Assembly: GCA_036768485.1 (NCBI GenBank)
Contig: JAVLUZ010000052.1
Location: forward strand, 1-64,000
Source of the DNA: Mermis nigrescens
Lineage: Eukaryota > Nematoda > Enoplea > Mermithida > Mermithidae
Reading direction: 5' to 3'
Length of the DNA stretch: 64,000 nucleotides
Shown here: positions 14,936 through 38,830 of the stretch, one piece after another
Numbering within the stretch: position 1 is the first letter of the stretch
How the letters are laid out: each line of letters opens with the position of its first letter
Program-made: the position numbers and the translations under genes
The notes under the pieces: generated by a model
The model's database searches: none
The model's input: the letters and a program-made list of their open reading frames with translations, nothing else
Told to the model about the DNA's origin: nothing

Positions 14936-16265
14936 ATTCGGTTAGGTCCTATGTTCGACTGTGTCCCTTTTAATTTCGTTTATTTTGTTGGCAAGTCGTT
15001 GGGGTTTGATCGTATTTAAATGATTTAATTAAGAAATTTTCATAGTTTTCATTTTGGTCGTTAAGGTTGTTGAAACCAGAGTTAGGTCGTACATGCGCTC
15101 AAAAAAATATAGCAGTGGGAAGAGCAAAGCTTTGTTCAAAAATTCATATAGAACGTTAAAAATTATATAACGTCGTGAATTTGAGTTTTTATTCTTTCTT
15201 TTCAATGCTTTATCTAACAAGTTAAAGTGAGGGTTTTATTCAGAGGTTTCTAAAAATCCTCTTGCACTAATCATGTCAATTTTGTTATTATTTCGAGTTT
15301 TGCAGATGAGTGGTGGTATTTTATCATATTTTCGTTGATTCTTCTTGTTGAAAACTATATTTCTGACGATTAGTTTTTTATTTTCGGCTTATTAGTAATA
15401 CACAGTTTGCATATGCAAGTTTTACGAAGAATTACATTTTCCTTATGTATCAGACAGGTTTAATGTGTTGAATTTTATAAGACAGTTCAATGTGTTGAAT
15501 TTTACATGGTTTGATAGAGACGTTGAGAATTTCTATAATCAGTCGTAGAATCTGAGGTTTTAAAATCTTTCTTTTCAATGATTTATCTAACAAATTAAAA
15601 CGGAGAATTACGAATTATTTCAGCGTAGCATTCGGATAGAGAGCTAATTTAAGCAATTGTTTGCTTGATCGATTTTCATCGCGTACGATCGTGCGTCGTT
15701 ATTGGGCGTTGTCCAATTCTGCAATGTCCATTGTGTTGTCAATTTGTCAGCAAAAAGGGCGTTTGTCCTTCTGGCAGATTCAAACTTATGAACGTGAATT
15801 CGGCTTAAATTTAAAGAAAATTTTCGAGCCTCCGCAATGGAATTTTAAAAAAAAAATGGTGATCAAACGAAAAAAAATTTCGCCATACGAATTGTATTCT
15901 AAATAAAAGTAGAGAATAAAAAAATTGGGAAAAAACTGTATTTTGCACTCTTTAGTCGAGGTTTTAAATGTATTTTTTCACTGTTTTTGAAAATTCTGGT
16001 TGCGTTAACGACCATCTTATTACGAAACTCCTAGTTTGTTATTCATTCCATGTAACCGATTGTTCCATCGCCACTCTTTGACACATGTAATTTTGAATAA
16101 TTGAATAATTCTATACTATTTGTGCGTTTTGTGTTTTGTGTTTTGAGTAGGAGGATCTGTTTGTGTACATGTTTTTTGCACACTTCTGCAAATTTGATAT
16201 ACAATACATCACTTGCAGAACGTTTAGTTTATTCGCATAAGTACTTAATCTGCAATTGCTCAATT
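14936..16265. other. AT-rich flank left of the Polinton
   Basis: About 1.3 kb without recognisable genes. One 81-codon frame (15661-15906) has no recognisable motif and starts at TTG. No Polinton similarity is visible, so the element boundary at 16266 appears real. Confidence 0.4.
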
Positions 16266-16680
16266 ATTAACTATACTACATGTTGAAGCATAGGCGCGAA
16301 GCGCCGAGCTCAGTACACTTGTACTTGAAGGCACAAGTGCACTGTACCCCTTGAAATACCAGGGCAAGCTGGGGCGAGCTAGTCCTGGGGCAGGGGGTTC
16401 GGGCCATACCCTTGAAGTCCCAGAGCTAGCTGGGGCGAGCTAGCTCGGGGGCCCAGGCTGTTCAGCCTGAGCATATTCTCTGCAATTCCGTCGAATGTAA
16501 AGGAGACTTGAAACATCATTTTCACGGGTTTAACTAGGAAGTATGATTCATCATAAGTACACTCGTACTAAACTAAGCAACTTCACAACCTCTTCAGAAT
16601 TTGGTTCACATAATTTTTAATAAACCATTCATTGATAAAAGGAACAGTTTTAACCATTTCAGAACATTTTCTTTTTTTAT

Positions 16681-16760
16681 AAAATTTGATGCCTTCAAGA
16701 ATCGAACCTCAGGTTCTGAAATCGTAAGTTCCACCTTCTACCACTAGACTAGACAAAGTG
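16681..16760 (-). ncRNA. tRNA-like Pol III unit in left terminal repeat
   Basis: The mirror of the unit at 35991-36070: B box complement at 16698-16708, A box complement at 16741-16751, T-run complement at 16681-16684. Read on minus, the anticodon arm can pair around a TAC triplet. The acceptor stem does not pair well, so it looks tRNA-derived and not a working tRNA. Confidence 0.5.
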
Positions 16761-16819
16761 TCGCTACAAAAATTTTATTCTCTATACATTCCAAGGGCGT
16801 TTACACTGAATAGACATTT

Positions 16820-16827
16820 CTTTTATA
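16820..16827 (-). promoter_or_regulatory. Outward TATA box in left terminal repeat
   Basis: TATAAAAG on minus in the context AGTCTATAAAAGAAATG, the same context as the promoters at 32205 and 32608. It points outward through the tRNA-like unit. Confidence 0.55.
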
Positions 16828-16986
16828 GACTACATGCATAATTTTTATCCATTAATTTAAAAATGCTGTGATCAGGTTACAACAAGTGCTGTATAGGTGG
16901 TATGATTAATCACATATTGCTCAGATACATGCTCTTTAAATCGTGTATTATTTAGTTTGTTGGCTAAAAATATTCTTTATGCTCAT

Positions 16987-22797: not shown

Positions 22798-25792
22798 TTG
22801 GTAGTATGACCGGCTTTATGAATCGCGGTTATTTTTGCGAAGCTTGTAACAAGGGTTATAACGATAAGATTGGTCACCGTTGTTCTAAACTTTGCCCATG
22901 TTGCTACGGTTCAGCATGCCCAAATGTTGCTCTCGTGGAATGTACAGACTGTAATCGCCTATTTAGAGGTCGAAGTGTTTTGAAAATCATAAAAAAGTCG
23001 GAAAAAACGAAAAGTCGATTTGTCAACAAAAGATGCTCTGTAAAAATTGTGGTCGGCATGTAAATAGAATCGATAAAATACGGAAACATAAATGTGGTCA
23101 CTTTTATTGTAAAACGTGTAAAGCTGACCTGCCTATTAACGATCATAAATGTTTTATGCAAGTCATAGCCGAAGGAAAAGATGAAAAGAAAAAAACAAAA
23201 TACGTGTTTTTTGACTTCGAAACCAGGCAAGAAAAAGCATGTGGTAATTCAAGGATGGAGCATGAACCAAATTTATGTATAGCGCATATTGCATGTACAG
23301 ACTGCCTAGCAAAACCGATTGGACTATGCGATAAATGCGGCGAAAACAAGCGCATATTTTATGGCGAAAATTGCACAGATGCATTTTGTGATTTTCTTTT
23401 TGGCCTCGAAAATGCTATAGCAATCGCTCATAACGCTAAAGGTTTTGACGGACACTTTATTTTAAAATACCTGTTTAAACAAGCTGTCGCGCCCACTATA
23501 GTCACAAAGGGTTTAGAAATCATGAGCCTTAGTGCAGGATCGATAAAATTAATTGATTCATTCAATTTTCTGCCTATGGCCCTAGCTGCTTTGCCAAAAA
23601 CGTTCGATGAGCCTGAGTTAAAGAAAGGCTTTTTTCCGCATCTTTTCAATACACGTGCAAATGAAAATTATGCAGGTGAGTGGCCAGATGCGTGGTACTA
23701 CTCCCCAGCCACCATGAGCCCAAAAAACAAAGAAAGTTTTCAAAAATGGTACGCTGAACAAAAGGGCAAAATTTTTAATTTCAAGTCGGAACTTTTGGCT
23801 TATTGTGAGTCTGACGTCGACATTTTAAGGCGATGCTGCCTTAAATTTCGCGATTTATTTATGGCCGAGACGGGCATGGATCCTTTTGAGTGTTCCTTAA
23901 CAATAGCGAGCGCGTGTAACAAAGTTTTCCGGTCGACTTACTTACAGCCAAAAACAATAGGTATAGTACCGCATGGCGGATATAGGCGAATGGAAAAGCA
24001 TTCGATAACAGCCATAAAATGGTTATAGTGGATCAGCGAAATGAATAAAATCAATATTAGACACGCACGCAACACGGGCGAGCAAAAAGTGGGCAATTAT
24101 CGCGTAGACGGAATTTATGAAAAGACAGTGTACGAATTCAATGGATGCTTCTGGCATGGGTGTCCGAAATGCATGAAAAAACGAACACAAATGACGGCAG
24201 ACCAAATAACATCAGCCGAAGAAGCGTTTCAAAATACAGTACGACGGCGCAAAACAATTGAAAAAATGGGGTATAATGTAATAGAACTCTGGGAGTGTGA
24301 ATTACGACGGGAATTGAAAGCAAATCTTGTAATGAAACAATTTTTCGATTCAATAAAGATTGTTGACCCGCTTGACCCCAGAGAAGCGTTTTATGGTGGG
24401 CGCACAAATGCAATAAAGTTATATGAGAAAATTGAACGCAGTGAAAATGGCGATCCTTTAGAACATATCATATACACAGATATCTGCAGCTTATACCCGA
24501 CCGTAAATAAATACGGCCTGTACCCTATTGGCCACCCACAAATTTTGACTGAAAATTTTTCTGAAATCGCAGTCGACAGCAGACCGTATGAAGGTTTAAT
24601 TAAAGCAAAAATTCTTCCACCCAGGAATGTATACCACCCTTTATTGCCCTATAGATTTGGCGAAAAATTGTATTTTCCACTATGCAGAACATGCACTGAA
24701 ACGCATCAAACAACAAGATGCGAGCATAGTGACGAAGAACGTGCAATAGTGGGCGCCTGGGTAACGCTCGAAGTGTATAAAGCGCTAGAATTGGGGTACA
24801 AAATAATGGAAATATATGAAATCTGGCACTATGAAAAGACTGAGCAATATGATAAAATAAATAACCCAGACGGTGGTCTATTTACATCATATATTAACAA
24901 ATTCATGAAACTAAAGCAAGAATCGGACGGTTGGCCTGCATGGGTAAAATCGGATGACGACAGAGCTTAAAACGTGCAAAATTACAAAGATAACGAAGGA
25001 ATCGAACTAGATGCCACAAAAATTACGAAAAACGGCGGTATGCGCGCTCTCGCAAAACTAATGTTGAATTCATTCTGGGGGAAATTTGGACAGCGAAATA
25101 ACATGTCAAAAGTTTCATTTTTTACCGATCCGGCCCCATATTTCGACTTAATTTTTGACCCTTCAAATATAATTTACTCAATTAACGCGATTAATGAAAA
25201 TCTGATGGCCGTTACACATGCGAAAGAAGATGAATTCGCCGATGTGATGGGAAATACGAATCCTGTGCTCGCAGCTTACACAACATCTCAAGCGCGACTC
25301 AGATTATACGAACATTTAGAAAAACTTGGCGATCGTGTCTTATACTTTGACACAGATAGTGTCATATTTAAAAGCACACTTGGCAATGATGAATATCGAG
25401 TGCCTATAGGATCATATTTAGGAAATATGACAAATGAATTGAAAGATTACGGTGAAGGCAGCTACATTGACGAATTTGTTAGTGGCGGACCTAAAAATTA
25501 TGCGTATAAAGTATGCTCAGCAAGGGATGGTAAAATGTATTACCATATAAAGGTCCGTGGATTCACATTGTCGTCAGTGACTGCCACAAAAATTAATTTT
25601 CAATCATTATTAAAAATGGTAAAAATGTTTGTACAGGAAAACAATATTGTTGAAAAAGTTGTATATTTTCCGCAAATTCGACGCTTGCCTGATCATACTA
25701 TTGTGACAGAAGATGCGTCAAAAAAGTACAAAATTGTTTATAATAAACGTGTTGTAAAGCCCGATTTCTCTACTGTGCCGTATGGCTTTTAG
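22798..25792 (+). pseudogene. POLB: Protein-primed DNA polymerase B, zinc, exonuclease and polymerase parts (broken)
   Basis: Continuation of the interrupted polymerase. A Cys/His-rich region (CEACNKGY, CPCCYG, CTDCNRLF) precedes the 3'-5' exonuclease motifs: Exo I FFDFET (about 23210), Exo II AHNAKGFDGHF (about 23427) and Exo III YCESDVDIL (about 23800). Then come polymerase motif A DICSLYPTVNKYG (about 24480), motif B KLMLNSFWGKFG (about 25060) and motif C YFDTDSVIF (about 25342). It ends in FSTVPYGF, as in relatives. Lesions are a frameshift in the A-run near 23025, an in-frame TAG at 24026-24028 and an in-frame TAA at 24968-24970. All catalytic motifs survive. With 18015-18926 the gene would be about 1,300 codons, normal for Polintons. 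It would replicate the element from a protein primer. Confidence 0.93.
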
Positions 25793-26274: not shown

Positions 26275-26430
26275 ATGATCAACGATACTAGCATAGATAG
26301 GAATCATCTGCAGCCCATTTATAATGAAATAATGGGTTGTATTATAATTGTAATAATATTATCTATCCTAATTTTATGTAAGCTTTTGAAAAAACAGCTG
26401 GAAAAGGTATATAAGAGAGTGCATAGTTAA
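26275..26430 (+). CDS. 51-aa single-pass membrane protein
   Basis: An ATG-to-TAA frame of 51 codons. Residues 21-36 (GCIIIVIILSILILCK) form one hydrophobic helix, followed by a basic tail rich in K and R; the N-terminal 20 residues are polar. This would be a small type I or III membrane protein. It sits between the polymerase and the Cys-rich gene, and the TATA box of the next gene (26408-26415) lies inside its 3' end. The function is not recognised. Small membrane proteins are common in virus-like elements, but no homology is claimed. Confidence 0.55.
   Translation: MINDTSIDRNHLQPIYNEIMGCIIIVIILSILILCKLLKKQLEKVYKRVHS
26408..26415 (+). promoter_or_regulatory. TATA box of the Cys-rich gene
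   Basis: TATATAAG, 28 bp before the ATG at 26444. Confidence 0.55.
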
Positions 26431-26443
26431 GGTTCTAGCAGAA

Positions 26444-26881
26444 ATGAGTCTCCCACAGTGTCCTCTGTGTTTCCTAGTGCCAAAATCAACATACCATTAC
26501 GAAATATGCAGCTTCCTCTGTAAAGAACCCCATTTTTTGCGACGATGGTGTAGATTTTTTAAGCCAGGATGCAAGCACTGCATTTTAGATATCGTTAGTG
26601 ATAAAAATAAATTACGTTTTACATTTAGATTGTGCCTAAAATGTTCTGCCGAGGTGAATGTTGTCAAGAAAAATAAATATATGTTGTATTTTTTACTTGA
26701 AGATGTAGACGGACCTCGATCTAAATCAAACGATATAAGCTTTGCAGTCGAATGCAAACATTGCATTTTAAAAGTTACTCGAAAAAATACTACTCTGAAA
26801 ATTTTTGTAAAATTCTGCAAAAAGTGTTCTAATCAGTTTTGTACGATCGCAAAAGGGAAAAACGCATTATATTTCTATTAA
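26444..26881 (+). CDS. 145-aa Cys-rich protein with three zinc-binding CxxC pairs
   Basis: Unrecognised protein. It has three cysteine units: C6xxC9 with C22/C26, then C43xxC46 with C64xxC67, then C104xxC107 with C125xxC128. The last two units are an internal duplication: CKHCIL, a basic strand of about 17 residues, then FxxCxKCS. Each could bind one zinc in a ribbon-like fold. It is intact and has its own TATA box. The stop is followed 2 bases later by the integrase ATG at 26884, suggesting a compact pair. A nucleic-acid or regulatory role is possible but not shown. Confidence 0.7.
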   Translation: MSLPQCPLCFLVPKSTYHYEICSFLCKEPHFLRRWCRFFKPGCKHCILDIVSDKNKLRFTFRLCLKCSAEVNVVKKNKYMLYFLLEDVDGPRSKSNDISFAVECKHCILKVTRKNTTLKIFVKFCKKCSNQFCTIAKGKNALYFY

Positions 26882-26883
26882 GC

Positions 26884-27660
26884 ATGGAAAAAGTATATTA
26901 CGACGACCCTAAAACCGGTTACACTGGCGCAAATATTTTGTGTACCCGAGTTAAACTGCCTAGACACACGGTAGTAAAATGGTTAGAAACACAGCCTGCT
27001 TACACGGTGCATAAACCATCAAAGAAAAATACGCCCGCAATAAAGTTATAGTATCAAGAATTGACGAGCAATGGGCGATTGATTTAGCTGATTTGCAATC
27101 GCTTAAAAAACAAAACAACGTTTACACATTTCTACTAAACTGTATCGATGTCTTTAGTAAATATGCTTGGAGCGTACCTATAAAAAACAAAAGCGCGGAT
27201 GCCATAGTAAATGCATTTAGATCAATTTTAGAAGGCGGCCGAAAGCCAGAAAAAGTGCAAAGCGATGCTGGCACTGAATTTACAAATAAAAAGTTTCAAA
27301 CTTTTCTACAACAAAACGAGTTAATTGGCTATAATAACACAAAGCATCGCACTATTGGTATAGAGCCAGTTAACGTAAATTCTAAAAATGAACAAAAAAT
27401 TTTGCAAAAAGCATTCAAAATTGATACAAGTGACATTAAGTTTAAATTTGATATATCTGATAAAGTACGCATAAGCAAAGTGAAGGGCGTTTTTGAAAAG
27501 GGGCTACGAACCAAATTGGAGCGAAGAAACGTTTATAGTTGATAAACGGTTAAAGAGAAAACCGCCCGTTTACGTCCTGAAAGATACAATGGGCGAAAAA
27601 CTAAAAGGCGTATTTTATGAGCCAGAAATGCAAAAAGTCGAAGTAATTGACAGTAGTTAG
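26884..27660 (+). pseudogene. INT: Retroviral-type integrase, degenerate copy
   Basis: Polinton integrase. The N-terminal part has YYDDPKTGYTGA and YTVHKPSKK. The catalytic core keeps the first Asp (CIDVFSKYAW) and the second Asp (SDAGTEFTN). An internal deletion of about 46 codons relative to the neighbouring copy at 36579 removes the third catalytic residue (Glu of ERFNRTLK). Frameshifts lie near 27025 and near 27500. The reading ends in EVIDSS and lacks the chromodomain; exactly there (27651) the palindrome begins. It cannot encode a working integrase as written. Confidence 0.88.
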
Positions 27661-28266: not shown

Positions 28267-28295
28267 AACTGCAAACAAAGTACAGCGCACGATTC

Positions 28296-28303: not shown

Positions 28304-28307
28304 AGTT

Positions 28308-28315
28308 TATAAATA
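28308..28315 (+). promoter_or_regulatory. TATA box, right half of a divergent pair
   Basis: TATAAATA, 27 bp before the ATG at 28343 and 4 bp from the opposite-strand box. Confidence 0.65.
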
Positions 28316-28342
28316 TGCTTAAAATCTATCATTTCATGAAAA

Positions 28343-28672
28343 ATGGAGGAAATTAAAGAAGTGAAAAAGCGAGCATTTGTTGATGAGGAGAAAAAACCAT
28401 ATGGATGATCGATTAAACCACCCATTGAATTGTGCGGTAGAAATCTTGAAAGGCCGATGTATGCTCTCATGTTACAATTGTGCTACTTTTGCCAAAAGAA
28501 CTCGTCAGAGCGCGAATTTTTCGAAACGAACGGGGGTAGGTGGTACATGAATCTTCAAATGTGCCCTCGTTGCTGTGAGTACAACCGGGCCATACAGGAA
28601 GCTGGTGCTCGGGTTTTAAAACGTTATGCAGAGCAGGAGGCGGAAGAATATAAAGCTAAACAAGCCTACTAA
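28343..28672 (+). pseudogene. 109-codon zinc-ribbon protein A, left-arm copy (nonsense)
   Basis: A small protein with CYFC (about residues 46-49) and CPRC (about 75-78), a probable zinc ribbon, and a charged helical C-terminus (RYAEQEAEEYKAK). This copy has TGA at codon 22, where the right arm has CGA; otherwise it is full length. Two relatives exist: 30021-30349 in the other arm and 38158-38488 in the second Polinton fragment, always next to protein B. Conservation across three copies shows it is a real Polinton gene. Function not recognised. Confidence 0.75.
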
Positions 28673-28677
28673 ATGTC

Positions 28678-28685
28678 TATAAATA
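28678..28685 (+). promoter_or_regulatory. TATA box of gene B, left arm
   Basis: TATAAATA in the context TGTCTATAAATATG; a second TATAAGTA follows at 28692. The ATG is at 28733. Confidence 0.65.
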
Positions 28686-28732
28686 TGAGTCTATAAGTAG
28701 GAAAGTCATACAGCTGTCAGCTATATGCTAAA

Positions 28733-29054
28733 ATGGCTTCACCTGGTGAATTAGCCTACCGTCACTTCATTGACAGACTTGTTGAAAAAGGCTGCAAGCG
28801 TTTCGTTTCTGTACGAAATGTGGAATCGATTGGCTCCTGTTTTTGGAGCCAGCTCAGTCAAACATTTAAAGAAGAACGCAAGAACGAAGATAAAAAAGCG
28901 TTCTGGCCATTTGCACAACTCCTCAAAAGCTATATTGTGAACCAGGAAAAGAAGTACTATACAGTTTGTGGGAGCACTTTGACACAAACGCGAGAACATG
29001 TGGGAGCATTTGTATGAAAACGCGATTTTGCATAAAGTGAATATGGTGTTGTAA
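28733..29054 (+). pseudogene. Protein B (about 107 aa), left-arm copy (frameshifted)
   Basis: A small soluble protein starting MASPGELAYRHF and containing VRNVESIGSCFW and KNEDKKAFWPFAQLL. Compared with the right arm, this copy lacks two single bases (in the A-run near 28950 and near 28993), so the frame stops early at 29017. Relatives are at 29635-29959 and about 37780-38100. It always lies downstream of protein A and upstream of an integrase. It is not recognised as a known family. Confidence 0.7.
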
Positions 29055-29167
29055 ACTGTTCTTGTTATTATTGTTGTTCTTTGAAAATTAAAATGAAAAT
29101 AAAACACAACAATGGTTGCGTCACATACACGCTTAACACGCCAAGCGTGTTTAGCCGTATTGATGTG

Positions 29168-29175
29168 TATAAGTA
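29168..29175 (+). promoter_or_regulatory. TATA-like box before the integrase fragment
   Basis: TATAAGTA, 24 bp before the ATG at 29200. Confidence 0.45.
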
Positions 29176-29199
29176 GAGGTGCAGACTATAGATATAAAA

Positions 29200-29398
29200 A
29201 TGAATAAGGCGTTAAGTAAATTATATTACGACCCAAAGATAGTGGGTACTCGGATGCCCACCATTTGTACACTAAAGCTCACAAATTGCATCCGCGCATC
29301 ACATTATCTCAAATTAAATCATGGCTAGCTAAACAGACTACCTACTCATTACACAAACCAGCTTTAAAACGATATAGGCGCAATAAAGTTATAGTAAG
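29200..29398 (+). pseudogene. INT: Integrase N-terminal fragment at the palindrome centre
   Basis: Encodes the start of a Polinton integrase: LSKLYYDPK, then, after a frame change near 29270, the ITLSQIKSWL and TYSLHKPALKRYRRNKVIV region. It stops abruptly where the right palindrome arm begins. The gene order A, B, INT matches the second fragment at 36579-38488, so the palindrome seems to have formed by fold-back inside this integrase. Confidence 0.8.
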
Positions 29399-29634
29399 TG
29401 CAATTTGTGAGCTTTAGTGTACAAATGGTGGGCACCCGAGTACCCTGTCTTTGGGTCGTAATATAATTTACTTAACGCCTTATTCATTTTTATATCTATA
29501 GTCTGCACCTCTACTTATACACATCAATACGGCTAAACATGCTTGACGTGTTAAGCGTGTATGTGAAGCAACCATTGTTGTGTTTTATTTCCTCATTTTA
29601 ATTTTCGAAGAACAACAATAATAACAAGAACAGT

Positions 29635-29959
29635 TTACAACACCATATTCACTTTATGCAAAATCGCGTTTTCATACAAATGCTCCCACATGTTCTTCGC
29701 GTTTGTGTCAGAGTGCTCCCACAAACTGTATAGTACTTCTTTTTCCTGGTTCACAATATAGCTTTTGAGGAGTTGCGCAAATGGCCAGAACGCTTTTTTA
29801 TCTTCGTTCTTGCGTTCTTCTTTAAATGTTTGACTGAGCTGGCTCCAAAAACAGGAGCCAATCGATTCCACATTTCAGTACAGAAACGAAACGCTTGCAG
29901 CCTTTTTCAACAAGTCTGTCAATGAAGTGACGGTAGGCTAATTCACCGGGTGAAGCCAT
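29635..29959 (-). pseudogene. Protein B, right-arm copy (frameshifted)
   Basis: Mirror of 28733-29054. One inserted base near 29875 shifts the frame after RFVSV. Unlike the left copy, the C-terminal part (through HLYENAILHKVNMVL) is open. The two arms carry different lesions in the same gene. Confidence 0.72.
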
Positions 29960-30007
29960 TTTAGCATATAGCTGACAGCTGCATGACTTTCCCTACTTAT
30001 AGACTCA

Positions 30008-30015
30008 TATTTATA
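30008..30015 (-). promoter_or_regulatory. TATA box of gene B, right arm
   Basis: TATAAATA on minus, 48 bp before the ATG at 29959. Confidence 0.6.
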
Positions 30016-30020
30016 GACAT

Positions 30021-30349
30021 TTAGTAGGCTTGTTTAGCTTTATATTCTTCCGCCTCCTGCTCTGCATAACGTTTTAAAACCCGAGCACCAGCTTCCTGTA
30101 TGGCTCGGTTGTACTCACAGCAACGAGGGCACATTTGAAGATTCATGTACCATCTACCCCCGTTCGTTTCGAAAAATTCGCGCTCTGACGAGTTCTTTGG
30201 CAAAAGTAGCACAATTGTAACATGAGAGCATACATCGGCCTTTCAAGATTTCTACCACACAATTCAATGGGTGGTTTAATCGATCGTCCATATGGTTTTT
30301 TCTCCTCATCAACAAATGCTCGCTTTTTCACTTCTTTAATTTCCTCCAT
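30021..30349 (-). pseudogene. Zinc-ribbon protein A, right-arm copy (frameshifted)
   Basis: Mirror of 28343-28672. Codon 22 is intact (CGA), but one base is missing in the A-run after CYFC (near 30200), so the frame breaks there. The remainder is readable in the shifted frame. Confidence 0.75.
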
Positions 30350-30376
30350 TTTTCATGAAATGATAGATTTTAAGCA

Positions 30377-30384
30377 TATTTATA
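30377..30384 (-). promoter_or_regulatory. TATA box of gene A, right arm
   Basis: TATAAATA on minus, 27 bp before the ATG at 30349. The opposite-strand TATAAATA for the microprotein is at about 30389-30396. Confidence 0.6.
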
Positions 30385-30425
30385 AACTTATAAATAGAAT
30401 CGTGTGCTGTACTTTGTTTGCAGTT

Positions 30426-30536
30426 ATGGAGGATTGCAATGACGGTTTATTGCTGACATTGAATATCACTATATGCTTAATATTTCTGGAATTTATAATA
30501 CTTTTGCTTTATGCAAGACAAGTCCTTTATAGATAA
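30426..30536 (+). CDS. 36-aa membrane microprotein, right-arm copy
   Basis: Mirror of 28156-28266 with one visible change (I to N in the polar start) and an unchanged hydrophobic helix. It is open and preceded by a TATA box about 30 bp upstream. Of the genes in the palindrome, only this one is undamaged in both arms. Confidence 0.5.
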   Translation: MEDCNDGLLLTLNITICLIFLEFIILLLYARQVLYR

Positions 30537-31090
30537 AATGCATTATCAATTTATGGTCGTTTTGTTTGATAAAAAAGGCGGCACACGAGTTTTACGGATA
30601 AAGAGGCTACTTTTTTGGCCTAAAAAAGTACCTATACCATGCAGAAAATGATCATTTTATAGAACCGTGGAATGAGCGCGCAGCTATTTTGGCTTACTTT
30701 ATGATGCAAAATATAGGTGATATTGATAATCTAGTGTAAACAGAAATGGTGGGGTAGGGCGCTCCCGGGGCGGTGGGTGGGCCCGGCCTCAACCACGTGG
30801 AAACGGCCCCAGCTGTAGAGGTTGAACTTGTAGTCTAGACCACGGACCTAAACTATGAATACACTTTTTCCGCACACCTTAAGCTGTGACAAGCACACCT
30901 GAAAAATGCGGTTAGCCACCCTGGGCAAGAAAACCACTCTTGCCCCTTGGTCTCCTATGCTATAATGCTGCACACAATATAGCATAGCAAGTGGGTTGGT
31001 CCCAGCGCCTATCCTATAACACAGTAGTGCTGAAGGATAGGCGCCAGGCTAATAAGGCTAACTACTACTCTGTAGTTTATACTGAAAAAG

Positions 31091-31098
31091 TATAAAAG
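31091..31098 (+). promoter_or_regulatory. TATA box of the capsid module
   Basis: TATAAAAG in the context AAGTATAAAAGAAATG, 35 bp before the ATG at 31134. Confidence 0.7.
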
Positions 31099-31133: not shown

Positions 31134-31478
31134 ATGGCTCCAAAACGTTTACGCAAAAATTTTAGTCACATTGACGTGCTCGCCAAGGCTAGACCTAAAC
31201 AGCGTAGAGCAATATTACAAACTGCCGATAATGATCTAATCATATGCCTATGCGAATGCATTCTCAATGTTCTTAATGGCAATATTCCTTTAAAATCTAA
31301 TGAAGTTGAAAAATTGATTAAGTACAAATCGCTGCTTAGGCGTATAATTGATAGCAATGCAACGATTAACGAAAAAAAGAACTTGCTCGTGCAAAAAGGC
31401 GGTTTTCTACCCATTCTCCTTGCGCCTATATTAGGAATTGCGGGTCAATTATTAGCGGATGCAATAATAAAACGATGA
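31134..31478 (+). CDS. pX-like small virion protein (114 aa)
   Basis: A basic N-terminus (MAPKRLRKNF), a helical middle, and a C-terminal hydrophobic segment GGFLPILLAPILGIAGQLLA at residues 88-107. The GGFLP..LAP signature recurs in small proteins of Polintons and adintoviruses that have been likened to adenovirus core protein X. By that analogy it would be a virion core or membrane-interacting protein; this is inference from family recollection. Its last four bases overlap the start of the next gene (ATGATG), so the two are probably translated from one transcript. The frame is intact. Confidence 0.7.
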   Translation: MAPKRLRKNFSHIDVLAKARPKQRRAILQTADNDLIICLCECILNVLNGNIPLKSNEVEKLIKYKSLLRRIIDSNATINEKKNLLVQKGGFLPILLAPILGIAGQLLADAIIKR

Positions 31479-32209
31479 TGCACGCAAACAAGATGATTTT
31501 AGTACCGCACGAGTTAGCTGCGGGAGAAAACAAAAGCAATGTAAAATATATGTCAGATTTAGATAATGAAATGTTAAGCATTTTGCAAGATAAGACATTG
31601 CCCATTGATGCTAAAGTAGTAAAATATAATCAAATTTTGCATAGGTATCAAATTGCTAAGCAAGATTCTGAAAAACCGCTTCAATTAGAAATTAAGGAAT
31701 TGAATAATCAGGTTTCACGTGACTCACAGGAAAATAAAGTGATTGATTCCGTAAAGGAGGCAGTGTTTAACATAGTACCAATAAAATGGCAAAAAAATGC
31801 CATGTCACTGTTACAATATGCGCGCACAAGTCCACACATTAGATGGTCTGACAAAGGTGAAATGATTATTGCTGGGAATAAAATTGTTGGTTCAAATATT
31901 GTAGATTTAATTACCGATTTTTCCCGAACAGGCAAGTCTGAGCCGGCTATAGGAGCCGACATTTTTCTGCAAAAATTAATGGACGATAATGTGCCAAAAT
32001 CATCTATTGTAAATAAAAAACGTTTAAGCTTACTGCAAGAAAAAGAGTTGTATGTATCGCCCGATATGTCTACTCCCTCTACAATGGACAAAAGAGCTCG
32101 TACGCAAAGCACACCATCAGACAATTATGAGGCGCTAACGCCGCCAGCGCTTAAAAAAAGACCACGTACGCGCAGTTTGTTGAAAAATTGGACAAAAATA
32201 AGTCTATAA
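31475..32209 (+). CDS. Conserved Polinton protein of 244 aa, function unknown
   Basis: The N-terminal half is helical and charged. Residues from about 110 on contain the recurring block RTSPHIRWSDKGEM, GSNIVDLI and DIFLQKLMDDNVPKSSIVNK, which I recognise from Polinton and adintovirus genomes next to the pX-like gene. The C-terminus is Ser/Thr/Pro-rich and basic (KKRPRTRSLLKNW), suggesting DNA binding or a nuclear signal. It overlaps the upstream gene by four bases. The promoter of the next gene (32205) starts within its last codons. Intact; probably a virion component. No catalytic motif is seen. Confidence 0.65.
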   Translation: MMHANKMILVPHELAAGENKSNVKYMSDLDNEMLSILQDKTLPIDAKVVKYNQILHRYQIAKQDSEKPLQLEIKELNNQVSRDSQENKVIDSVKEAVFNIVPIKWQKNAMSLLQYARTSPHIRWSDKGEMIIAGNKIVGSNIVDLITDFSRTGKSEPAIGADIFLQKLMDDNVPKSSIVNKKRLSLLQEKELYVSPDMSTPSTMDKRARTQSTPSDNYEALTPPALKKRPRTRSLLKNWTKISL

Positions 32210-32212
32210 AAG
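32205..32212 (+). promoter_or_regulatory. TATA box of the 140-aa gene
   Basis: AGTCTATAAAAGAAATG context, 33 bp before the ATG at 32246. Confidence 0.7.
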
Positions 32213-32245
32213 AAATGCGTGCATAAAAAATAACAAATTCTAAAA

Positions 32246-32668
32246 ATGAGACAACAATTTAATCCCGAAAATTTTAACATTTGGCTCGACTACTATAGCG
32301 ACCAGGCTTCACAGGTCGGCTATGGTAATATGATTGGATTTAAGGGAACACCTTACCAACGGGGCGCGGGTTTGGGTAACTTTTTTCGCTCACTTTTTCG
32401 AATGGCTATACCATTAATGAAATCAGCGGCGACTAGCATTGGTAAGCAGGCGCTTGCATCCGGCGCTCACGTAGCAGCTGATGTTCTACACGGTCGACCT
32501 ATAATACAATCATTCGAACAGCATGGAAAAGAAGGCGCATCAAATTTATTAAAACAGGCAAATGAAGCATTACAAAAGGGACGTGGTCTTGGGGTGCGTC
32601 CAAAGTCTATAAAAGAACCTAAGCAGGATATATTTTCAAGTAAAAAGCAAAAACGAAAATGTCATTAA
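32246..32668 (+). CDS. Amphipathic 140-aa virion protein, pVI-like in position
   Basis: Family hallmarks: a YYSDQA start, GFKGTPYQRGAGLGNFFRSLFR (20 residues at most are quoted elsewhere; residues about 32-53), then a long amphipathic Ala/Gly-rich helix through LMKSAATSIGKQALASGAHV and a basic tail with a KKQKRKCH end. The glycine turn plus amphipathic helix recalls the membrane-lytic helix of adenovirus pVI, and these proteins sit just before the major capsid gene in Polintons. The pVI comparison is inference. It overlaps the capsid gene by ten bases, and the capsid TATA box (32608) lies inside it. Intact. Confidence 0.7.
   Translation: MRQQFNPENFNIWLDYYSDQASQVGYGNMIGFKGTPYQRGAGLGNFFRSLFRMAIPLMKSAATSIGKQALASGAHVAADVLHGRPIIQSFEQHGKEGASNLLKQANEALQKGRGLGVRPKSIKEPKQDIFSSKKQKRKCH
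32608..32615 (+). promoter_or_regulatory. TATA box of the major capsid gene
   Basis: AGTCTATAAAAGAA context, 43 bp before the ATG at 32659 and inside the preceding gene. Confidence 0.7.
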
Positions 32669-33969
32669 TCGATTCACTCTCACTCGCTAGTACAAAAAGC
32701 GAGTTAGATTTTTTCACTGTTCCTCCTACCCAGGTTGCTGTGAAAAGAGGATATTGGGATGAAATCAATTTGACTAACCCGGTAACAGATGAAGGTCCTT
32801 ACGAATTTCACATACCTCCCGATCCTCATTTTTTGCAACTAAATAAAAATTACATTTACATGCAGCTTTCATTATCTCCAGGTGTTATGCTAGCAGGAGC
32901 AGATGGAAAAATTCCTGCCACGCCAGCTGTAGCGCCTATAAATTTAATTGGTAAAACATTTTTTAGACAAGTCAAGTTATTTTTAAATGGTAAACTCGTA
33001 CATGATAGCGGCGATAAATATGCATACAGAGCTTTCTTAGAGACCGAACTTAGCTATAATTGGGATGCAAAAAATTCGCATTTACAATCCGCATTGTATA
33101 CTCAAGATAATAAACGGGATTCTGAAGATAATTATGGCTTTAAACAGCGCGTTTCTTACTTTAAAGATAAAACAATAATCGAAGTAACAGCTCCGCTTCA
33201 TATTGATTTATTTTTGCAAGACAGAGTTTTATTAAACTATACCGATTTAAGACTCGAATTAAATAGAAATCCGGATGCATTTGTTTTAGAAAGCCCAGGT
33301 GGAGCAATAAATGCTCGTCTGAGTGTACAACAAATGAAATTTTTAGTAAGAAAAACCGAAATTTTAGACAGTGTGCATTTAGCTGTTGAGCAAGTGCTGA
33401 CTAAAAATACTGCAAAGTATCCTATTCGTAGAGTAATGATGATGAACTTACACATTCCCAGTACATCTCAGTCAACCCCACTTAACACATTATTTTCCGG
33501 ACAGCTCCCTAGACGCATAATTTTTGGATGCATCGATGCAGACGCGTATCGAGGTAACGTTAAAAAATCGCCATTTAATTTTAAATCATATAGCATAAAT
33601 GAAGTTAAAGTGATTTCTGGTGGCGCGACTTTTCCTTCCCATCCTCTGAAGCTAGATTTTAAGAAAGGGAAGTATATTAGAGCGTTTGATCAATTATTTG
33701 AAGTGCTGGATATTGCTAGGGACAATAAAGGAAACAATATAACTCGAGAAGGGTTCAACGATGGTCAGTGCTTTTTTGCATTTGATCTCACTCCCGACGA
33801 AGATGACGGCGCCCATTGGGATCTAATTAGGGAAGGTACGACTAGCATTGAAATTTCCTTTGCAGAAAAAATTCCAGATACAGGTATCGAAGTAGTAGTT
33901 TACGCCGAATTTGATAATTTAGTAATGTTAGATAAGCATCGAAATGTAATATTTGATTATACTGCTTAA
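32659..33969 (+). CDS. MCP: Major capsid protein, F54H12.2 family
   Basis: A 436-aa protein opening with FFTVPPTQVAVKRGYW and continuing with the family's landmarks: GPYEFHIP, a KLFLNGKLVHDSGDKYAYRA-like block (about residues 110-135), AKYPIRRV, LPRRIIFGCIDADAYRG, PFNFKSY, FDLTPDEDDGAHW and VVYAEFDNLVMLD. These match the proteins annotated as F54H12.2-like in many invertebrates, which I take to be the Polinton major capsid protein with the double jelly-roll fold. It would self-assemble into the icosahedral shell. Completely open, with no frameshift or stop, unlike the replication genes of the same element. The protease gene follows 3 bases after its stop. Confidence 0.85.
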   Translation: MSLIDSLSLASTKSELDFFTVPPTQVAVKRGYWDEINLTNPVTDEGPYEFHIPPDPHFLQLNKNYIYMQLSLSPGVMLAGADGKIPATPAVAPINLIGKTFFRQVKLFLNGKLVHDSGDKYAYRAFLETELSYNWDAKNSHLQSALYTQDNKRDSEDNYGFKQRVSYFKDKTIIEVTAPLHIDLFLQDRVLLNYTDLRLELNRNPDAFVLESPGGAINARLSVQQMKFLVRKTEILDSVHLAVEQVLTKNTAKYPIRRVMMMNLHIPSTSQSTPLNTLFSGQLPRRIIFGCIDADAYRGNVKKSPFNFKSYSINEVKVISGGATFPSHPLKLDFKKGKYIRAFDQLFEVLDIARDNKGNNITREGFNDGQCFFAFDLTPDEDDGAHWDLIREGTTSIEISFAEKIPDTGIEVVVYAEFDNLVMLDKHRNVIFDYTA

Positions 33970-33972
33970 AAG

Positions 33973-34482
33973 ATGAATACTATTCAGCTAATTAACGTTT
34001 TAAACAGCGACCAGGCGGTTGGTCGAGTTTTTTGTGGAGTTTTTCCGAGCGATAAACTACCGCCAATTTTTAGTAAACCATCTGCATTAGTTATGAATAC
34101 AGACCCTAGTAATCTGCCCGGCTCCCACTGGGTATGCTTGTTTTTCGATGCAAATGATAAATGCGAATATTTCGATAGCTACGGACTATCGCCCAGTGAA
34201 AAAACGCGCGAGTACGTACTAAAATATGCATCACACTTAAAATATAATAAAAAATGTGTGCAGAAACCTCTAACATCTACGTGCGGACAATTGTGCGTAT
34301 ATTTTTTAGTATGGCGCTGCAGAGAAGTGCCTATGAAATTGATTTTACAAAGTTTAGAAAAAAGCTTTTCTGATGAATTCGTTACCGGTTTTGTAAATAG
34401 TCTATTTAAGCTCAGCACAACAGTAGTAAATGAAGAATTTCTAGTTAATCAAATTGCTAATCAATGGATCAATTTTATGTAA
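33973..34482 (+). CDS. PRO: Adenain-type capsid maturation cysteine protease
   Basis: 169 aa. The catalytic triad is visible: His52 in NTDPSNLPGSHW, Asp68 in EYFDSYG, and Cys104 in TSTCGQLCVYFL, in the order and spacing of adenovirus protease and Polinton PRO. It should cleave virion precursor proteins during assembly. All three residues are present and the frame is intact. It lies directly between the major capsid gene (3-base gap) and the penton-like gene (19-base overlap). No clear TATA box precedes it, so it may share the capsid transcript. Confidence 0.95.
   Translation: MNTIQLINVLNSDQAVGRVFCGVFPSDKLPPIFSKPSALVMNTDPSNLPGSHWVCLFFDANDKCEYFDSYGLSPSEKTREYVLKYASHLKYNKKCVQKPLTSTCGQLCVYFLVWRCREVPMKLILQSLEKSFSDEFVTGFVNSLFKLSTTVVNEEFLVNQIANQWINFM
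34403..34410 (+). promoter_or_regulatory. Possible TATA box of the penton-like gene
   Basis: TATTTAAG in the context TAGTCTATTTAAG, 54 bp before the ATG at 34464. A weaker match than the others. Confidence 0.35.
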
Positions 34483-35216
34483 CATTACCCAGTAACACTG
34501 TTAGCGATAAACAAAATACCCCATCTGAATTTACCGTACATTTGCCACAAAAAATTAAATTGACTGGAGATTGGGAATGTGGTCTATGTCAGCTAATCTA
34601 CCCACACAATTGGGAAACGCTAAAAACTGAAAAAACTGATATTCATATAACAGACGCTGATGACGACGATCATGTAATTAAGATACCGCTAGGGTGTTAC
34701 GACTCAATACATGAATTTGTTGAGACGATGCAATTCTGCCTTCTAAATGGGGGCGAAATTGTGAAAAAGGGAATATTTTTTAAATACTTTAGTACGATAA
34801 AGCGAGTACAAACAATAGTGTACAGTGAATTTGTAAAATCAGTAACATTACCACCAGAAATAACCAAAATTTTAGGGTTTCAAGATAACAAAATAACGAA
34901 ATCAGTATGGGGCGTTAATGAACCAAATATGCACGTTGGGGGCATTGAAGTATTGTACATTTACGCAAATATTTTGGAACCACAAATTGTTGGAGATGTG
35001 GCGGCTCCCTTATTACGAATTGTTAACGTAGAAGGGTCCTACCCCAATATTATCGATAAAACCTTCGACTTTCCTCACTACGTACCCGTCCTAGTTAAAG
35101 ATATTTCAAGTATTGAAATTAATATTAAAGACGATTTAGATGAATTTGTTCCATTTATTTCGGGGAAAGTGATTGTCAAATTGCATTTCCGAAAAATTAA
35201 ACCGTCCTACTTTTAA
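34464..35216 (+). CDS. Penton-like minor capsid protein (250 aa)
   Basis: Starts MDQFYVTLPSNTVSD, with NTPSEFTVHLPQKIKLTGDW early and repeated beta-strand-like segments throughout. Length, position after the protease and the opening motif fit the second, single jelly-roll capsid protein of Polintons, which would form vertices. The fold assignment is inference; the N-terminal SNTxSxFxVxLP pattern recurs in such proteins. The ATG lies inside the protease gene (19-base overlap). Intact. Downstream, after 47 bases, is the TBP gene. Confidence 0.65.
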   Translation: MDQFYVTLPSNTVSDKQNTPSEFTVHLPQKIKLTGDWECGLCQLIYPHNWETLKTEKTDIHITDADDDDHVIKIPLGCYDSIHEFVETMQFCLLNGGEIVKKGIFFKYFSTIKRVQTIVYSEFVKSVTLPPEITKILGFQDNKITKSVWGVNEPNMHVGGIEVLYIYANILEPQIVGDVAAPLLRIVNVEGSYPNIIDKTFDFPHYVPVLVKDISSIEINIKDDLDEFVPFISGKVIVKLHFRKIKPSYF

Positions 35217-35219
35217 GGA

Positions 35220-35227
35220 TATAAATA
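35220..35227 (+). promoter_or_regulatory. TATA box of the TBP gene
   Basis: TATAAATA, 36 bp before the ATG at 35264. The TBP gene thus has a promoter its own product could bind. Confidence 0.75.
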
Positions 35228-35263
35228 CTCGTGTTTTTCAATTAATTATCATTATTAATCAAA

Positions 35264-35797
35264 ATGGCTACGATTGTGAACGTCGTTTCAACAGCTCGGC
35301 TTTCCACAAAACCCCTAAATTTATACAAAATTAAGAAAAGTTGCGATGGGGTAGAGTTCGATCATAAGCGTTTCAATGCTATGATTATTAGATTAAAAGA
35401 ACCTAAAGCAACAGGTTTGTTATTTAATTCGGGAAAATTAGTTTGTGTAGGTGCAAGGAGCGTACAAGAAAATAACGTTGCAAACAAGAAAATTTGCAAA
35501 TTATTACAAACTAGTGAATATAAGCTACAACTTACCACTCATAAAATCCATAACGTCGTTGGTTCTGGCAATATCCATAGGCGAATAAACGTACCATCTT
35601 TCGCTAGAGCTTATCGCAAAATTGTTGAGTATGAACCCGAGTTGTTTTGCGCCGCAAAACTTACATTCCCAGATAGCAGAGCTACGGCGCTCATTTTCAG
35701 TTCTGGCAAGATCGTAATCACAGGTCTGAAAACTGAGTCGCAAGTACACCGATTTTATAAAAACGTTATTTTTCTCATAAGCCCTTTCCACATATGA
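35264..35797 (+). CDS. TBP: TATA-box-binding protein (TBP) carried by the Polinton
   Basis: 177 aa, the full length of the conserved TBP core and nothing more. Repeat 1 (about residues 1-88) begins IVNVVSTARL and holds KRFNAMIIRLKEP and LLFNSGKLVCVGARS. Repeat 2 (about 90-172) begins IHNVVGS and holds YEPELF and ALIFSSGKIVITGLKTE. The four phenylalanines that kink TATA DNA (F37, F54, F128, F145) and the two central asparagines (N6, N97) are all present, so TATA binding is likely. Single exon, intact, with its own TATA box. It lies between the penton-like gene and the right terminal repeat (23-base gap), inside the element. It is clearly diverged from animal TBP, so it is not a recent host retrocopy. 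Likely role: directing host RNA polymerase to the element's TATA promoters; this is inference. Confidence 0.93.
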   Translation: MATIVNVVSTARLSTKPLNLYKIKKSCDGVEFDHKRFNAMIIRLKEPKATGLLFNSGKLVCVGARSVQENNVANKKICKLLQTSEYKLQLTTHKIHNVVGSGNIHRRINVPSFARAYRKIVEYEPELFCAAKLTFPDSRATALIFSSGKIVITGLKTESQVHRFYKNVIFLISPFHI

Positions 35798-35933
35798 GGT
35801 TATGTGTACATATAGGTTATATGTATCTGAGCAATATGTGATTAATCATACTACCTATACAGCACTTGTTGTGACCTGATCACAGCATTTTTAAATTAAT
35901 GGATAAAAATTATGCATGTAGTCTATAAAAGAA

Positions 35934-35941
35934 ATGTCTAT
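35934..35941 (+). promoter_or_regulatory. Outward TATA box in right terminal repeat
   Basis: AGTCTATAAAAGAAATG context, about 60 bp before the A box of the tRNA-like unit. No protein gene follows. Confidence 0.55.
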
Positions 35942-35990
35942 TCAGTGTAAACGCCCTTGGAATGTATAGAGAATAAAATTTTTGTAGCGA

Positions 35991-36070
35991 CACTTTGTCT
36001 AGTCTAGTGGTAGAAGGTGGAACTTACGATTTCAGAACCTGAGGTTCGATTCTTGAAGGCATCAAATTTT
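35991..36070 (+). ncRNA. tRNA-like Pol III unit in right terminal repeat
   Basis: A box TAGTCTAGTGG at 36000-36010 fits the tRNA A-box consensus. B box GGTTCGATTCT at 36043-36053 fits with one change. TTTT at 36067-36070 would terminate Pol III. The anticodon arm can form (TGGAA with TTTCA) around a TAC triplet, and the T arm has one mismatch. The acceptor stem does not pair. It is therefore likely a tRNA-derived small RNA or Pol III promoter, present in both terminal repeats. Confidence 0.5.
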
Positions 36071-36578
36071 ATCAAAAAAGAAAATGTTCTGAAATGATTA
36101 AAACTGTTCCTTTTATCAGTGAATGGTTTATTAAAAATTATGTGAACCAAATTCTGAAGAGGTTGTGAAGTTGCTTAGTTTAGTACGAGTGTACTTATGA
36201 TGAATCATACTTCCTAGTTAAACCCGTGAAAATGATGTTTCAAGTCTCCTTTACATTCGACGGAATTGCAGAGAATATGCTCAGGCTGAACAGCCTGGGC
36301 CCCCGAGCTAGCTCGCCCCAGCTAGCTCTGGGACTTCAAGGGTATGGCCCGAACCCCTCCCCCAGGGCTAGCTCGCCCCAGCTTGCCCTGGTATTTCAAG
36401 GGGTACAGTGCACTTGTGCCTTCAAGTACAAGTGTACTGAGCTCGGCGCTTTGCGCCTATGCTTCAACATGTAGTATAGTTAATCATTGTAGCGCCCCAA
36501 GGTCCAGCTGTACTACTTATGATTTAAAAAACACTGACCAATAGACTCCATTTTTGATCTTAAGATTTAACTTACTAT

Positions 36579-37640
36579 TTATAGCTTTACAATATCAGAA
36601 ACCCACGAGTCAAATTTAGGCGGGTAACCTCTCCAGCGCACCAAATAATCAGTTTTCTTGCCTTTTTTACGAATTTTTATAATTTTTTCAATTACGAATA
36701 AATCATCTGATTTTGCACTAATTTTCTGCAGCTCGGTTTCGTAGAAAATACCCTCTAATTTTTCCCCCTTTTGATCTTCGAGAGTATAAACGGGTGGTGT
36801 GCGAGCAAACCTCTCTTTAACAATGAAATATTCTTCGGTCCAGTTGGGCCAGAATCCTTTTTCGAATGTGCGTTTCACTTTACTTATACGAACTTTATCA
36901 CCAATATCAAATTTAAAAACAACGTTCGGTTTATCAATTCTGAATGCTTTGTTTAAAATTTCTCTTTCGTTTTTATAGGTAACGTTAGCGGGGGATGTAC
37001 CAATGGTCCTATGAAAACAATTATTATAATTTTTAAGCAAATCGGGCAAAATGTCAATATATTTAAATGTATTCTTTTTAGTGAAATATCGCCACATGCG
37101 TTCTTTAAGCGTACGATTAAACCGCTCAACAATACTAGCTTTCATTTCGCTTTTGGTCGTGAAAAAGTCAATAAATTGAGATTTCAAAAATTGCTGAAAT
37201 TCCTTGTTTGTAAACTCAGTTCCCTGATCCGTTTGCAGTTTATATGGTTTACGGCCCGACGATTTGAAAATTTTCTGAAAAGATGCGATAATTTCTTTAC
37301 CAGTTTTTGATTTAAGTGGCACTGACCATGCATACTTTGAGAAAATGTCAATACAATTGAGTAGGTACTTAAAATTATGATTGTAGTCGGCTAACGATTG
37401 TAGATCAACCAAATCCGCTTGCCACTGCTCATCAACCCCGCTAACAATTACCTTGTTACGCGAATAATCGTTTCTTTGCAGGTTTGTGTAGTGTATATGT
37501 GGGTTGCTTTTCCAGCCATGCTTTTACCTTTTCAAATTTTGTAGCTGGACGTAACTTTTTACTCGAGCAAAAAGTTGATTCGCCCCAGTATACCCAGTTT
37601 GAGGGTCGTAATATAATTTTGTCAACAATTTATCCATTTT
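36579..37640 (-). pseudogene. INT: Integrase with chromodomain, core intact
   Basis: Polinton integrase. The core (open from 37412 to 36579, 277 codons) has the complete D,D-35-E set: Asp in NCIDIFSKYAW, Asp in TDQGTEFTN, Glu in VERFNRTLK. It is followed by the DNA-binding part and a C-terminal chromodomain (FVIEKIIKIRK, YLVRWRGYPPKFDSW). The N-terminal zinc region is frameshifted twice (near 37560 and 37470), so the full protein is not encoded as written. It would insert Polinton DNA, and the chromodomain would guide it to chromatin. Much better preserved than the copy inside the main element (26884-27660). Confidence 0.88.
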
Positions 37641-37644
37641 TACA

Positions 37645-37780
37645 TTTATTTTATTTTTTAATATTTATGCTCTTATTGGCCGATCAAACGGATCGTTTCC
37701 GGCTCCCACCGCGTGGAGGTTAAGAGCAACGGGAGCCTGCGTTTTTAGAAAACGCACATTTTACTTGTAAATTCACAACA
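37645..37780. other. Hairpin-rich spacer
   Basis: GGCTCCC pairs with GGGAGCC and GCGTTTT with AAAACGC, resembling the gene-end hairpins of the main element. Confidence 0.4.
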
Positions 37781-38100
37781 AACGATCTACTTGTTGCAAA
37801 ATACAGTTATCATACATGTTTTCCCACATGTTCTTTCCATTTTGATCAAAAGCCAGCATACAAGCCACACAAAGAATCAACATCTTTGTTTAAAATGGCT
37901 GCTTTCAGTCTCAATGCAAAAATCCAAAATGCTTCGCGTTTATCAATTTCGCGCTGTTCCTCTTTAAACGCATCGCTCATGTAACCCCAGAAACAGGAGC
38001 CTATGCTTTGAACATTTCTGACGCTCAAGTAGCGATTGTTAGCTTTTTCAATAAGCTTTCGGACAAAATGATGGTACGCTAGTTCACCGGGTGAAGACAT
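37780..38100 (-). pseudogene. Protein B, second-fragment copy (frameshifted)
   Basis: Starts MSSPGELAYHHF and keeps VRNVQSIGSCFW, clearly homologous to 28733-29054. The frame breaks near 37850, and the C-terminal part (KNMWENMYDNCIL) continues in another frame. A TATAAATA box lies upstream at 38147-38154 (minus). Confidence 0.7.
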
Positions 38101-38146
38101 GCTTTCTTTTAATTAGCTGCTATATAATATACCTAACGCGCACCCT

Positions 38147-38154
38147 TATTTATA
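38147..38154 (-). promoter_or_regulatory. TATA box of gene B, second fragment
   Basis: Context AGTCTATAAATAAG on minus; shows the promoter type is shared by a diverged Polinton. Confidence 0.6.
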
Positions 38155-38157
38155 GAC

Positions 38158-38488
38158 TTAGTAAGCTGTTTTGGCCTTTTCCTCCTCAGCCTGCTGATCA
38201 GAATAGCGCTTCAGCACTCTTTTGCCCGCTTCCTGCATGGCTCTATTAAACTCGCTGCACCTGGGGCACATTTGGATATTCAAGTACCACCTGCCAGAAT
38301 TTGTTTCGAAAAAGTCCCTTTCAGAACTATTTTTCTGACAAAAATAGCAAAGCTGGATCATTAGGGCAGTACATGGGCCGATCCAAGTTCCTCCCACATA
38401 GCTCTATGGCCGGTTTGATGGACCGGCCATAGGGCTTCTTCTCCTCATCCAGAAAAAGACGCTTTTGGATTTCCCTGATTTCTTCCAT
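38158..38488 (-). pseudogene. Zinc-ribbon protein A, second-fragment copy (frameshifted)
   Basis: Begins MEEIREIQKRLFLDEE and has CYFC and CPRC like the copies at 28343 and 30021. The frame changes near 38365, just after RNLDRPMY. A TATAAATA box is at 38538-38545 (minus). Confidence 0.72.
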
Positions 38489-38537
38489 TTTCTCTTTAAA
38501 GTAGCTAGAAAAGTAGTTAAACAGTAGACCATTATTA

Positions 38538-38545
38538 GTATTTAT
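38538..38545 (-). promoter_or_regulatory. TATA box of gene A, second fragment
   Basis: TATAAATA on minus, 49 bp before the ATG at 38488. Confidence 0.55.
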
Positions 38546-38830
38546 AGATTTCAGGGGGAAGGTGGTTATTTCGGTCAATTCTTCCAGTTTCCTACAATTT
38601 AAACCCCATTAATAGTGTAATAACACGCTAATATTTATAATGTATGTCCCGGCGGTTCTTCTACTATATGGAACCGTGATCCGAGCCAGTACCTATCTAT
38701 GTGTGTAAAGTAAAAATGGTCGGGTCTTAGTTCGCCACCGAGTGGCTTAAGCCCGTTGCGCCCCGACAAGGCGCCCGACCGTTGCAACAGGTCTTACCTT
38801 TCTTCTTCATCCCGCTCTTCTTCCTGAAAA

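Follow-up and report, generated by a model that had tools for sequence, protein, structure and literature searches.

Virus-encoded TATA-box-binding protein (TBP) is in itself known from large viruses. Giant viruses and poxviruses encode TBP-like proteins (PMC7221094), and B263R of ASFV has been listed among the viral TBP-like proteins (PMC5825884). In one study, TFIIB binding was assigned to a glutamate pair of TBP, and an N-lobe basic cluster was assigned to the binding of TFIIA, Mot1, Brf1, Brf2 and TAF1; viral TBPs vary both at the TFIIB contact and at the N-lobe cluster, and are nearly always paired with a viral TFIIB (PMC7221094). A survey of mirusviruses reported TBP in 59% of the genomes, as against 0% for the Nucleocytoviricota there (PMC10132985), and TBP occurs sporadically in mirus-like elements of Cymbomonas (PMC10675990). 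Polintons, Mavericks and adintoviruses share terminal inverted repeats, polymerase B, integrase, protease and a double jelly-roll capsid protein, and the words "TATA" and "TBP" do not occur in the main text of the four papers from which this description was taken (PMC4028283, PMC8097293, PMC10120064, PMC11071308). In the accessible texts that name both polinton and TBP, the TBP belongs to mirusvirus, mirus-like or giant-virus contexts. In the literature searched, in which subscription journals were thinly covered, we found no report of a TBP in a Polinton, and the first-pass annotation of the present locus had likewise known of none.

We describe here a TBP gene in a Polinton of the nematode Mermis nigrescens, located in a stretch of 64,000 nucleotides (hereafter, the window). 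Similar to the TBPs of giant viruses and poxviruses, it encodes a TBP of a dsDNA virus in which the DNA-binding residues are kept and the N lobe departs from the host signature. In contrast to the giant-virus TBPs, where the TFIIB-contact positions are reported to have drifted, the glutamate pair of the Polinton TBP is of the host type; furthermore, nearly all TBP-encoding giant viruses, poxviruses excepted, also have a TFIIB-like protein, whereas none was matched in the window element (PMC7221094). The likeness to mirusviruses is that TBP recurs among the genes of a group of eukaryotic dsDNA viruses; however, mirusviruses are described as large and with another capsid fold, whereas the window element is 20 kb long with a double jelly-roll capsid protein. 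Among the phage records, three haloarchaeal-virus TBPs were matched, including those of HRTV-9 and HJTV-2, which are likewise virus-encoded, although the host is archaeal and the identity to the window TBP is 26-31%.

The features of the element are collected in Table 1, where L001 denotes another element with a capsid protein of this family, which is described below.

Table 1. Genes, terminal repeats and upstream TATA boxes of the Polinton at 16261-36489 of the window.
Feature	Coordinates	Strand	Basis
Left terminal inverted repeat	16261..16930		660/670 columns identical to right one
Family B DNA polymerase, three pieces split by in-frame stops	23033..25792	+	Pfam DNA_pol_B_2 per piece (third below cut-off)
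TATA box, 36 nt before ORF 26444	26408..26415	+	TATAWAWR
145-aa ORF without family match	26444..26881	+	Pfam scan
Damaged rve integrase	27015..27660	+	Pfam rve 5.6e-11; core gap
TATA box, 43 nt before ORF 31134	31091..31098	+	TATAWAWR
114-aa virion-block ORF	31134..31478	+	43% to L001 ORF
244-aa virion-block ORF	31475..32209	+	31% to L001 ORF
TATA box, 41 nt before ORF 32246	32205..32212	+	TATAWAWR
140-aa virion-block ORF	32246..32668	+	39% to L001 ORF
TATA box, 51 nt before capsid ATG	32608..32615	+	TATAWAWR
Double jelly-roll major capsid protein	32659..33969	+	Fold matches
Adenain-type protease	33973..34482	+	Pfam Peptidase_C5 3.6e-8
Presumed penton-like ORF, 250 aa	34464..35216	+	Matches L001 ORF 6197-7201
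TATA box, 44 nt before TBP ATG	35220..35227	+	TATAWAWR
TBP gene, 177 aa, both lobes	35264..35797	+	Pfam, PDB TBP matches, predicted fold
Right terminal inverted repeat	35821..36489		660/670 columns identical to left one

As shown, the element has the long terminal inverted repeats, the double jelly-roll capsid protein and the adenain-type protease of Polintons/Mavericks, together with a family B DNA polymerase and an rve integrase, both damaged in this copy. The capsid model (pLDDT 80.4) matched the folds of the PBCV-1, Sputnik and mavirus capsids and of viral models. All seven ORFs of the virion block (31134-35797) are open and run in one direction; we take the ORF that precedes the TBP gene to be penton-like, and TBP is the last gene of this collinear block. 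The polymerase gene is interrupted by two in-frame stops, a TAG ending at 24028 and a TAA ending at 24970. Another genetic code was rejected as an explanation for them: TAG and TAA are both found within the gene, and TAA or TGA terminates the intact ones. At ~19.0-22.8 kb the element contains repeats of the kind seen in its flanks, including in the polymerase gene, and the integrase is short of ~47 core residues relative to that of L001. The polymerase stops, the repeats inside the polymerase and the integrase core gap, which the first-pass annotation had not mentioned, therefore indicate that this copy is not autonomous. No exact six-base target-site duplication was found beside the two terminal repeats. 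Pfam gave no match to a packaging ATPase in the window-element ORFs scanned (even the ATPase-like ORF of L001 is scarcely recognized by Pfam, with Pox_A32 at 0.0047), and no match to TFIIB or RNA polymerase among the window-element ORFs of at least 100 aa. Extending the Pfam scans to four more window-element ORFs and five L001 ORFs left the reading unchanged, and three flank ORFs had no Pfam match.

The surroundings of these genes are rich in repeats. A 3.4-kb palindrome (27652-31066) lies inside the element, with arms ~98% identical and a loop of 108 nt, and is built of Polinton-like fragments, comprising the N-terminal part of an integrase and two small ORFs. Just past the right terminal repeat, 36579-38608 is the remnant of another Polinton, with a chromodomain integrase and an ORF that has a TATA box at -54 and is related to the ORFs of the palindrome. 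Both window ends (1-4085 and 59398-63541) consist of inverted copies of a ~4-kb repeat, 90-94% identical over several pieces, and related pieces were observed near 4.3, 8.0 and 22.0 kb, the last of them inside the polymerase gene.

The ORF at the end of the virion block is a full two-repeat TBP. Pfam TBP (PF00352) was matched in two stretches of it (E 2.2e-40), residues 2-175 of the product matched solved TBPs at ~1e-29 (phmmer), and the PDB matches of the protein were TBPs. The complete 177-aa gene had been reported in the first-pass annotation, and its coordinates, length and frame proved to be right. Characteristic residues of TBP are four phenylalanines that intercalate into and kink the DNA, along with two central asparagines. 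All six residues that had been named as kept, F37, F54, F128, F145, N6 and N97, are present in the window TBP; they do not vary in an alignment of 12 rows, and in one of 36 rows each is invariant or reaches at least 90% conservation. A structure prediction, which had been proposed as a check, gave the TBP fold: the model has a mean pLDDT of 96.8 and superposes on human TBP on DNA (1cdw) with an rmsd of 1.3 Å and a TM score of 0.95 over 177 columns. A spacer of 47 nt separates the gene from the stop of the penton-like ORF, and one of 23 nt separates its own stop from the right terminal repeat; lying between that ORF and a terminal repeat whose partner is at the left end, the TBP ORF is inside the element, and its description as Polinton cargo is correct.

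The relatives of the window TBP were sought in searches that gave 216 and 1277 significant matches, of which the best 120 of each were considered. Among the matches listed, the closest were P0122 (47%), P0002 (45%), P0123 (42%) and P0125 (40%), and named host TBPs were at most 37% identical. These four proteins of 173-177 aa are encoded on contigs of 1.1-1.4 kb that give no gene context. They have 5 residues ahead of the core asparagine; this short N-terminal tail is not diagnostic alone, since the eukaryote-side rows range from 0 to 115 (median 36). For the trees, the window protein, 177 listed matches and the L001 protein were used, the three-lobe P0124 being left out, and thinning at 70% identity gave 64 rows, with no TLF row set apart, no named mirusvirus TBP and no TBP of the nematode itself. 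In the careful tree, the window TBP and its four closest matches formed one clade (100/99), which in turn grouped with the L001 TBP and P0173 (88/88) and lay outside the rows from animals. The quick tree supported the clade of the window TBP at 96 but placed the L001 TBP apart from it. A tree had been proposed as a check on capture from the host; as described, it placed the window TBP in a clade of its own among rows without the host's TBP. Recent capture from an animal was rejected only marginally, with p 0.044 in the AU test for the clade of the window TBP and five animal rows as one clade. The AU tests gave p 0.465 for the window TBP with L001 and p 0.248 for L001 with animals. Polintons may have inherited a single TBP, or they may have captured TBP on two occasions. 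P0173 is a 233-aa TBP on a 19-kb contig, which groups with the L001 TBP (95/78) and could come from a different virus or element.

L001 was found by scanning a profile of 15 capsid proteins and two degenerate peptide patterns against species genomes, where it was the one confirmed among 60 candidate stretches. It is a partial contig of 11.6 kb from a metagenome bin labelled Planctomycetota, in which we take it to be mis-binned; the bin name (Dive96) suggests a deep-sea sample. By BLASTP, six virion-block genes at 29-43% identity and the integrase are common to L001 and the window element, and the two capsids are 38% identical. L001 encodes a complete TBP of 172 aa (Pfam 2.4e-45), 32% identical to the window TBP, the gene for which is on the opposite strand and adjoins the ATPase-like gene. 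As the search that yielded L001 was made with capsid sequences, it did not favor TBP carriers, and TBP is present in one of one relatives found in this way. That a further element with a related capsid has the gene too speaks against a chance event restricted to the window copy. No relative was confirmed in IMG/VR, whether TBP or capsid served as the query.

Next, the surfaces of six element-type TBPs (window, P0122, P0002, P0123, P0125 and L001) were compared with the eukaryote consensus at positions where at least 80% of 45 eukaryote-side rows agree, many of these rows being unnamed. For P0122, P0002, P0123 and P0125, the link with Polintons is tentative, since they lie on short, unplaced contigs. 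Agreement with the consensus was observed in 74/84 cells at the positions that we take to form the saddle and in 20/24 at the TFIIB stirrup, compared with 9/24 in the N-lobe helix H2, 3/6 in the C-lobe helix and 126/234 elsewhere. Of the glutamates that contact TFIIB, E126 was kept in all six proteins and E124 in five, P0125 being the one that has lost it. At five H2 positions that are usually basic, and which only approximate the numbering of PMC7221094, the window TBP, P0122, P0002, P0123, P0125 and L001 have 3, 1, 2, 2, 1 and 2 basic residues, respectively. The 45 eukaryote-side rows have 5 (24 rows), 4 (16 rows) or 3 (5 rows), so that the window TBP equals the lowest five of them, and the 13 archaeal-side rows have 0-4. 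By their sequences, element-type TBPs keep the DNA saddle and the TFIIB glutamates and are poor in the N-lobe basic patch. From the kept contact residues, the window TBP would be expected to bind TATA DNA and TFIIB.

The upstream regions of the element genes were then analyzed for TATA boxes. As shown in Table 1, five of the eight intact ORFs of the window element have TATAWAWR within 30-60 nt before the ATG, a range that was chosen after seeing the window sequence and was then used unchanged on L001. Shuffling the upstream 150 nt gave a mean of 0.31 boxed ORFs, and five were reached in 0 of 5000 shuffles; the same motif and range occurred at 9/416 other ATGs of the element and at 5/156 control ORFs of at least 40 aa. 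The three ORFs that lack a box (31475, 33973 and 34464) abut or overlap the preceding gene. In L001, 3 of 15 hand-picked starts had TATAWAWR at 30-60 nt (shuffle mean 0.07, 0/2000), and the looser TATAWA likewise gave 3 of 15 (shuffle mean 0.23, 2/2000). The L001 capsid gene has TATAWAWR at -94, and none was found within 120 nt before the L001 TBP gene. TATA boxes were also observed at -54 to -56 before ORFs of the other Polinton remnants in the window and at -74 before the likely polymerase start, and two integrase starts had none. The boxes at the remnant ORFs and at the polymerase start indicate that TATA promoters may predate the TBP gene or be more widespread than it, and host TBP may suffice for the boxes of the element.

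Taken with the surfaces, these boxes led us to propose, at about an even chance, that the element TBP acts on the element TATA boxes and recruits host TFIIB and RNA polymerase II, partly free of host control. The TBP would bind the boxes before the element genes, and the bound TBP would recruit the two host factors; that it works with host TFIIB is suggested by the kept E124 and E126 and by the lack of a TFIIB or RNA polymerase Pfam match in element ORFs of at least 100 aa. The poor N-lobe basic patch, the site of host TFIIA, Mot1, Brf1 and TAF1, would partly free the protein from host control. The box at 35220, before the TBP gene itself, could produce positive feedback, and the outcome would be selective and strong expression of the virion block. 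The identity and fold of the TBP, the boxes at five of eight genes and at 3 of 15 L001 starts, the TBP of L001, the kept saddle and TFIIB residues and the poor H2 patch of the element-type TBPs speak for this mechanism. The boxes at other remnants, the lack of a box at the L001 TBP gene, the three box-less window genes of eight and the separate position of the L001 TBP in the quick tree speak against it, as do the three of five basic patch residues still present in the window TBP, the loss of E124 in P0125 and the choice of the 30-60 nt range on the window sequence itself. Thus, the real TBP and its place as Polinton cargo stand as first annotated; its role at the element we still infer, now backed by the placement of the TATA boxes and by the retention of the TFIIB surface.

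Alternatively, this element lineage may have picked up a host TBP transcript or gene that has no function for the element, which would be read by host TBP. Polintons carry varied cargo, and such a passenger would agree with a window copy that is dead for polymerase and integrase and with the TATA boxes of related remnants, and an open ORF of 534 nt is not proof of selection at a repeat divergence of 1.5%. However, a complete TBP is also found in a second element that is only 38% identical in its capsid, and the window TBP has kept its saddle and TFIIB residues although named host TBPs, among the matches listed, are no closer than 37%; we consider a passenger unlikely. The kept TFIIB surface and the poor regulatory patch would also suit a host shut-off factor or decoy: a small TBP core in competition for the TFIIB or the promoters of the host, by which host transcription would be lowered and for which the element boxes would have no particular importance. 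A pure decoy of this kind needs no TATA boxes, yet they sit before the element's own genes, and we regard it as decidedly unlikely.

TBP bends DNA, and its gene adjoins the terminal repeat in the window, so that bending of the element DNA for replication, integration or packaging, and not for transcription, was also considered. In L001, however, the TBP gene is located elsewhere, and the TFIIB glutamates, which are irrelevant to such a role, are nevertheless kept in 5/6 and 6/6 proteins; a purely architectural function is the most improbable of these alternatives. Returning to transcription of the element by its own TBP, we tentatively propose, at somewhat less than an even chance, a Polinton lineage with TBP as a working virus gene, which reads the TATA boxes of the virion genes, relies on the TFIIB and RNA polymerase II of the host and has lost a large part of the surface for host control. 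If this is true, a 20-kb integrating virus without its own RNA polymerase has made a selective activator out of a general transcription factor. A small integrating element that has TBP alone and borrows the rest of the machinery would follow a different strategy from large viruses with a TFIIB-like protein. Such an element would offer a straightforward explanation for the control of virion genes in Polintons, and its TBP could serve as a naturally occurring variant with which promoter binding can be studied apart from regulation by the host.

Two further observations were made on L001. A stand-alone DWNN domain of 75 aa, which is ubiquitin-like (Pfam 8.5e-7), is encoded at L001:2293-2517 beside the TBP gene. 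In addition, seven near-identical palindromes, AGTGTCNNGAYACT, are distributed over L001:1096-11553, compared with a mean of 0.0 in 200 base shuffles; six of the seven are within 30 nt of a TATAWA on either strand, and they resemble operators to which a dimeric regulator would bind.
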